64,000 bases of DNA from Bacteroidales bacterium (GTDB taxonomy: Bacteria > Bacteroidota > Bacteroidia > Bacteroidales > UBA932), in contig JAAYCA010000052.1 of assembly GCA_012744435.1 (NCBI GenBank), positions 1 through 64,000 of the forward strand, read 5' to 3'. The translations under genes were made by a program, and so were the position numbers. The notes below the pieces were generated by a model. That model was not told the origin of the DNA and searched no databases. It worked only from the letters and a program-made list of their open reading frames with translations. Positions 30,311 through 31,358 of the stretch are shown piece after piece (within the stretch, counting starts at the first letter, position 1; each line of letters begins with the position of its first letter).

Positions 30311-31358
30311 GGTGATCATCGTTTTTTGCCCTTGGATGGGCGGATTTATACACTTGCTGCAGCCGCTCGATGGAATTGTGCGTGTAGACCTGGGTCGCCG
30401 CCAGGGAGCTGTGGCCCAGCAGTTCCTTGATGGAATTGAGGTCCGCTCCCCCGTCCAGCAGCTCCGTGGCCAGCGTGTGGCGCAGGACGTGCGGGGACTT
30501 CCTGCCGCTGATGCCGCCGACGGGTCCGAGGGCCGCCTTGACCGCCCGGTCCACATAGACCGGATAGAGCCTGCCGCCTCCCGGCGTCTGCAGGAGCGGA
30601 GCGTCCGGGGTCGTATCCGCGCATTTCAAAGAGTCAACTGCATGTAAATATAACAATATTTCCTCACATAGTGAAGGAAGCAGGGGAATTTCCCGCATTT
30701 TGTCTCCCTTGCCGCGCACGCGCAGTACCTGCCGCGACAGGTCCAGGGAACTCCGGTTGAGTGAAATCAGTTCGCCCCGCCGGATCCCCGTCCCGAACAG
30801 CATCCCGAGGATCATCCGCTGCAGCTGGTCTTCATACTTGCCATACTCCAGCACCCCCTTCGTCTGCTCGAAGTACGCGCGCATCGATTCGTCCCGGTAG
30901 AACACCGGCAGCCGTTTTTCCTGCCTGGGCCGCGCCACGAGCCGCACCGGGTTGCTCTCCAGCACGCCCTCCCGCATCAAATACTTGCAGAATCCGCTCA
31001 GCACGCTCATGTGCAGGTTCACCGTCTTCGCCCCCTCCCCCTTCTCATCCATCAGATACACCTCATAGCTCCGGATCGTCTGGACGGACAAAATTTCGCG
31101 CAACTGCGCAGCGTCAGCAAGGGTCTGCCCAGCAGAACCGTGGCCGCCCGTGGCCTCGTGAACGGGAGGGGCCCAGCCGTCAAGCTGGGAGGGATGAGCG
31201 CGCAGCGCGAAGTTCTGTCGGGCAGAGCCCTTGCTGCACGGAGCCTCACCGGCAGAAACAAATGAGGAATAATCTTCCAGGACGCCGCGGTAGATCTCGA
31301 CGGTACGGGGAGAGTAGCGGCGGACGGAGGAGAGGTATGTCAGGTAACGCTCGATCAT
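30300..31358 (-). CDS. Tyrosine recombinase (XerC-like) with an in-frame insertion
   Basis: TGIRRGELISL, HVLRHTLATELLDGGADLNSIKELLGHSSLAATQVYTH catalytic motifs; N-terminal domain contains an extra APCSKGSARQNFALRAHPSQLDGWAPPVHEATGGHGSAGQT segment. Confidence 0.85.
   Translation of the reverse strand: MIERYLTYLSSVRRYSPRTVEIYRGVLEDYSSFVSAGEAPCSKGSARQNFALRAHPSQLDGWAPPVHEATGGHGSAGQTLADAAQLREILSVQTIRSYEVYLMDEKGEGAKTVNLHMSVLSGFCKYLMREGVLESNPVRLVARPRQEKRLPVFYRDESMRAYFEQTKGVLEYGKYEDQLQRMILGMLFGTGIRRGELISLNRSSLDLSRQVLRVRGKGDKMREIPLLPSLCEEILLYLHAVDSLKCADTTPDAPLLQTPGGGRLYPVYVDRAVKAALGPVGGISGRKSPHVLRHTLATELLDGGADLNSIKELLGHSSLAATQVYTHNSIERLQQVYKSAHPRAKNDDHHGD
31115..31236 (-). repeat. In-frame palindrome-bounded insertion element, copy 1 (XerC-like recombinase)
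   Basis: Near-perfect terminal arms CAGCAAGGGTCTGCCCAGCAGAAC (31115-31138) / GTTCTGTCGGGCAGAGCCCTTGCTG (31212-31236); core CGTGGCCGCCCGTGGCCTCG on the plus strand. Confidence 0.8.

Follow-up and report, generated by a model that had tools for sequence, protein, structure and literature searches.

To our knowledge, palindromic repeats that code for protein segments have been regarded in the literature as peculiar to Rickettsia and Wolbachia. The Rickettsia palindromic elements (RPEs; Ogata et al. 2000, as described in PMC2229807 and PMC10969869) are 105-146 bp long, lie in frame in conserved genes, with one host enzyme shown to be active (PMC2229807), and encode a conserved peptide (PMC10969869). 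Other small repeats to be considered are the intragenic repetitive extragenic palindromic (REP; GTAG/CGTC) repeats and REPtrons, several of these repeats occurring in DNA replication/repair genes and in a tRNA pseudouridine synthase gene (PMC3733652), and the miniature inverted-repeat transposable elements (MITEs) such as ERIC, RUP and the Correia elements, which are small, non-autonomous and structured (PMC2229807). Here, we report on a palindromic element lying in the xerC tyrosine recombinase gene of a Bacteroidales bacterium (GenBank assembly GCA_012744435.1, contig JAAYCA010000052.1, positions 1 to 64,000; this whole 64-kb stretch is hereafter called the window). The insert belongs to a family of dispersed copies, specific neither to xerC nor to dif. 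We propose that this palindromic element is probably a small, non-autonomous mobile one, whose targets are both genes and the spaces between them.

The Bacteroidales element resembles RPEs in its size, its stem-loop DNA, its in-frame insertion in conserved protein genes and its occurrence in intergenic regions as well. First, it forms a dispersed palindromic family of the ~100-150 bp class: a covariance model (R1), built from an alignment of 40 copies (A1), gave 33 matches in the own genome, and matches in 40 of the 49 sampled genomes of the genus (own included), with 2-41 copies each. Second, it is inserted in frame (31/31 testable copies are open) and is absent from orthologs, as illustrated by the insert-free XerC proteins. 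Third, unlike RPEs, it shows neither one conserved peptide nor a preferred frame, the hosts using five frames and both orientations. Because of this last difference, we regard the element as RPE-like in its working rather than as a member of the RPE family. It also belongs to another phylum, and its pseudoknot core and copy-variable, self-complementary arms do not figure in the RPE descriptions as relayed by the two papers cited above, the comparison being one of descriptions only. Like REPs, the element is palindromic, at times intragenic and found in similar host genes, whereas REPs are 20-40 bp long and mostly extragenic, and no RAYT gene adjoins the element here. It is as small, non-autonomous and structured as MITEs. 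In MITEs, however, the terminal inverted repeats are fixed and target-site duplications are the rule, while the present arms are inverted but copy-variable, with one possible 6-bp duplication. We found no report of a protein-coding palindromic element from Bacteroidota in the literature, our coverage of subscription journals being limited. The present in-frame elements come from a genus that is abundant in gut and rumen, and they affect many of its conserved housekeeping enzymes.

An earlier sequence-only reading had placed a palindromic insertion of about 40 residues at 31115-31236, in the N-terminal domain of XerC. The position held, and the element turned out to be about 3-4 bases longer at either end (Table 1). 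The insertion falls between two N-terminal helices, and it is absent from most same-genus orthologs and from database relatives of 303-309 amino acids. The SAM-like N-terminal domain is indeed interrupted, its Pfam match ending at residue 36, where the insert starts. The proposed long hairpin with an internal CCCAGC/GCTGGG hairpin was likewise recovered: the two arms pair, and the fold of the element was equalled by none of 200 dinucleotide shuffles, either as DNA (z = -3.8) or as coding-strand RNA of xerC (z = -4.8; 0/200). The xerC reading frame is uninterrupted across the element, and the catalytic-type residues R193/R194, K217, H290, R293, H316 and Y325 are invariant in a family alignment of 48 sequences. 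The suggestion that an AlphaFold model might reveal a disordered loop was followed as well: residues 39-81, between two confident helices, have no secondary structure and predicted local distance difference test (pLDDT) scores of 25-33. As the model is weak outside the insert region too (mean pLDDT 57.6), its support for disorder is local only, and the insert, a loop of ~40-45 residues, is predicted to be disordered.

Table 1. Coordinates (window positions) of the xerC element, its parts, and the other element copies and host genes in the window.
Feature	Position	Strand	Evidence
xerC tyrosine recombinase, 352 aa, host gene	30300..31358	-	NCBIfam recomb_XerC E=1.3e-68
Complete palindromic element (arms + core) of type A, antisense to xerC	31112..31240	+	R1 match 31126-31224, 88 bits, E=1e-18
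Left arm, copy-specific, CGTCAGCAAGGGTCTGCCCAGCAGAACC, 28 nt	31112..31139	+	pairs with right arm
Right arm, copy-specific, AGTTCTGTCGGGCAGAGCCCTTGCTGCACG, 30 nt	31211..31240	+	pairs with left arm
Conserved core, 71 nt	31140..31210	+	alignment A1
Pseudoknot stem S1, GGCC 31142-31145 with GGCC 31152-31155	31142..31155	+	100% paired, 40 copies
Stem S2, CCCGT 31147-31151 with ACGGG 31162-31166	31147..31166	+	99.5% paired; covaries GC/AU/UA, UA/CG
Hairpin P3, CCCAGC/GCTGGG, 31172-31177/31184-31189	31172..31189	+	90% paired over copies; two-sided changes in five pairs
Hairpin P4, GCGC-GCA-GCGC (other copies have a short one or none)	31198..31208	+	fold
recG helicase, second host gene	50243..52936	+	NCBIfam RecG E=5.9e-248
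Second type A copy, in frame within recG	51961..52056	-	R1 92 bits, E=1.3e-19
pcrA/uvrD-type helicase, third host gene	56833..59226	-	NCBIfam pcrA E=2.9e-211
Degenerate element copy within the pcrA/uvrD-type helicase gene	57074..57154	+	R1 25 bits, E=0.0016

The xerC segment alone gave 25 BLAST matches in its own genome, where profile searches retrieved ~38 candidate copies, some of them weak or degenerate, mainly of two subtypes, A and B. Outside the genus, only 1 of the 32 other Bacteroidales families sampled had matches to the covariance model. A pattern scan of species-representative genomes returned at least 116 stretches, all those listed coming from Bacteroidales, Bacteroidaceae or Bacteroidia metagenome-assembled genomes (MAGs), among them Candidatus Cryptobacteroides and Merdivivens, mostly from ruminant and other animal guts. 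Searches of phages, plasmids and viral contigs gave no element match. With Rfam 15, nothing in the window reached the gathering score, the xerC copy had no match at E<=10, and six more copy loci of the own genome had none at E<=1.

The copies measure ~100-165 bp and comprise a core of ~70 nt enclosed by long closing arms. This core contains two or three hairpins in addition to an H-type pseudoknot. The core starts with the pseudoknot, in which stem S1 is interleaved with stem S2, followed by a variable P3, by P4, whose size differs between copies, and by the closing arms. S1 reads GGCC/GGCC in type A and AGCC/GGCT or UGCC/GGCA in type B, a G-C pair at alignment columns 17/30 being replaced by A-U in one subtype; S2 reads CCCGT/ACGGG, CCCAT/ATGGG or CCCTC/GAGGG. 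Over the 40 aligned copies, standard pairs occupy 91.8% of the cells, as compared to 36-51% when the partners are slid, and the covariation score is 0.463 versus 0.154 ± 0.010 after shuffling. A third subtype, CTTGCC-G-CCCTC-GGCAAG..GAGGG, follows the same pseudoknot logic in two copies (G000:C12:17085-17152 and C33:9025-9092), which have a long P4-like hairpin and occupy protein sites that carry A or B in relatives. Two other copies (G000:C33:10714-10845 and C27:70524-70590) hold short hairpin insertions of the AAAATCG... type, as if they had been invaded by other repeats.

The arms behave differently from the core: between copies with the same core at different sites, left-arm identity ranges from 29 to 83%, yet every copy remains self-complementary. 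The idea that every insertion event copies its arms from the target, drawn from identical cores with different arms, was rejected, as a single MAG has four copies with the same arms at separate sites (L094, L113, L119 and L078) and the arms are absent from one empty site. Most of each arm therefore travels with the core.

To identify the host genes we relied on homology, because codon usage was unreliable for assigning the host strand in this GC-rich genome, and we compared the own genome with the open frames around 123 element copies found in other genomes. Strong homology to the host on either side of the element was seen for 31 copies, every one of which lies within a single open frame; three apparent frame interruptions proved to be antisense shadows of rsmA. 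The hosts use five of the six element frames, in both orientations (anti-0, 13; anti-1, 7; anti-2, 4; sense-0, 4; sense-2, 4), the sixth almost always holding a stop. A copy has on average 3.2 open frames of six, and the chance that an insertion be both open and length-preserving is ~18%; the 31/31 score therefore argues for selection for frame, and the use of five frames in both orientations indicates that no particular peptide is selected. The same figures bear on the proposal that self-splicing or ribosomal bypassing eliminates the element at or ahead of translation, so that XerC would lack the extra residues. A strong structure maintained in place would suit such removal, which, however, would not require copies to be in frame and stop-free; Rfam gives no intron or ribozyme match, and one strand-specific ribozyme cannot account for both orientations. 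We consider this proposal highly improbable.

The hosts identified include YgiQ, an RsmF/RsmB-type methyltransferase, DnaX, an RlmB/TrmH-type methyltransferase, RNase R, TldD, PmbA, GltA, TrmB, QueH, RsmE, RsmA/KsgA, an RluA-type synthase, PolA, GcvPB, RecG, PcrA/UvrD, XerC and shikimate kinase, and element copies are also intergenic. The CCA-adding enzyme gene contains the element in L137 and is empty in the own genome; element matches in the pcrA/uvrD-type helicase gene recur in three relatives (L055, L104 and L114). As a consequence for annotation, segments of 35-50 residues in many predicted proteins of the genus are repeat-derived. Many hosts act on RNA or DNA, and they give the impression of a possible enrichment for RNA modification and DNA replication/repair (e.g. 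L002, L006, L008, L009, L011, L016, L019, L020 and L022); the Rickettsia and REP reports mention similar host genes.

Among the aligned same-genus XerC orthologs, only the own protein, L116, L137 and L145 have an insert. L116 harbors the same type A copy as the own gene, whereas the copy in L137 is of type B; the segment in L145 is a different one, whose sense peptide resembles that of type B. In the ~105 closest database relatives, the length of this loop ranges from ~29 residues (insert-free) to more than 140, with A- and B-derived peptides, in several frames, single or two in tandem. A cultured strain, listed as Bacteroidales bacterium WCE2004, has a seemingly type B insert in its XerC. The earlier reading would have been contradicted by a homologous segment in all close and distant orthologs, which is the case in part only: many close relatives do have a segment at this position, but through several different, apparently independent insertions, and distant orthologs have none. 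Comparison between species shows in-frame copies in corresponding protein loops that apparently stem from separate insertions, and the XerC loop is a recurrent landing site. Its many natural insertion states provide a comparative set for the study of how selfish DNA adds protein sequence.

From these data, we propose that the survival of intragenic copies would require both an unbroken frame and the accommodation of the extra 35-50 residues as a tolerated surface loop; the XerC insert would thus be translated and roughly neutral. Movement would occur in trans: a putative enzyme encoded elsewhere may recognise the folded single strand, and this recognition would preserve both the core and the pairing of the arms.

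Several observations weigh against such a mobile element. First, the core is better conserved than the surrounding host gene in orthologous copies: between the own xerC and that of L116, 70/71 core and 44/44 arm bases are identical versus 84% in the flanks, and between the own C70 copy and L123, 68/69 core bases versus 85%. Second, changes in the arms are often paired (56 two-sided, 26 wobble-type and 71 lost, of 544 pairs, several comparisons being non-independent and many losses lying at the outer ends). Together, core conservation and paired arm substitutions are not what simple decay after insertion gives; possible explanations are continuing selection of the fold, homogenisation among the copies, and correction of quasi-palindromes by template switching. 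Third, no transposition event was observed and no mobilising enzyme found. Fourth, the hint of a target duplication comes from a single clean empty site, where TCCGGA flanks the filled copy at a GTCCGGAC palindrome; this duplication is a lead only.

The conservation of the core relative to the host flanks, the paired substitutions in the arms and the conserved unpaired core bases seen in the alignment of copies also speak for a functional structured RNA or DNA site, regulatory or protein-binding for instance, selected locus by locus with mobility being secondary. We regard it as rather improbable, because the element sits in either orientation in unrelated genes, is absent from most orthologs, varies from 0 to 41 copies within one genus, and is represented by different subtypes in one loop in different species.

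The mobile element that we favor raises the question of what moves a fixed core with variable yet paired arms. Movement of a REP-type sequence by host RAYT (Y1) transposases is suggested by the REP-RAYT linkage in other systems (PMC3733652) and by the RAYT-like Y1 proteins of the genus, of ~300 up to 480 amino acids (L026 and L027 in the own genome, where they fall below the threshold for PF01797; G000:C14:27991 and C31:35296), which are encoded by 1-6 copies in most members examined. However, the 50 kb surrounding each of 16 RAYT-like genes contain no element match. Moreover, Y1 matches are missing from five genomes that carry the element, and the element is missing from two genomes with Y1 genes, although some of these genomes are incomplete. 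With neither proximity nor consistent co-occurrence, RAYT was set aside as the mobiliser, and this route appears unlikely. If the element spread through a folded RNA that is reverse-transcribed, this would fit the RNA-like pseudoknot core and the lone reverse transcriptase gene of the own genome (YSDD motif, G000:C3:7002-8258), but RVT_1 matches are absent from three high-copy genomes (G016, G023 and G047, with 28-35 copies) that are 95-98% complete; reverse transcriptase was rejected as well, and we hold this route to be very improbable. Neither IS110 nor TnpB was found in the own genome. More tentatively, and with some doubt, we consider that the element may represent a new class of mobile elements set not by fixed ends but by a single-strand fold (an H-type pseudoknot closed by arms whose sequence is free), which would be mobilised by a fold-reading enzyme, would be tolerated in any open frame and would have loops of housekeeping enzymes acting on nucleic acids as recurrent homes.

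Besides this element, the window contains an unrelated palindromic repeat, CGGCAACTGACCCC..., at 50509-50590 and 55129-55218, which occupies seven loci of the genome. More dispersed palindromic families, such as GCAGCAGGTT... and GGAAATTGGTTTTTCGG... (contigs C41, C55 and C26; C21, C26, C29 and C31), occur in the own genome, where small palindromic repeats are therefore abundant.
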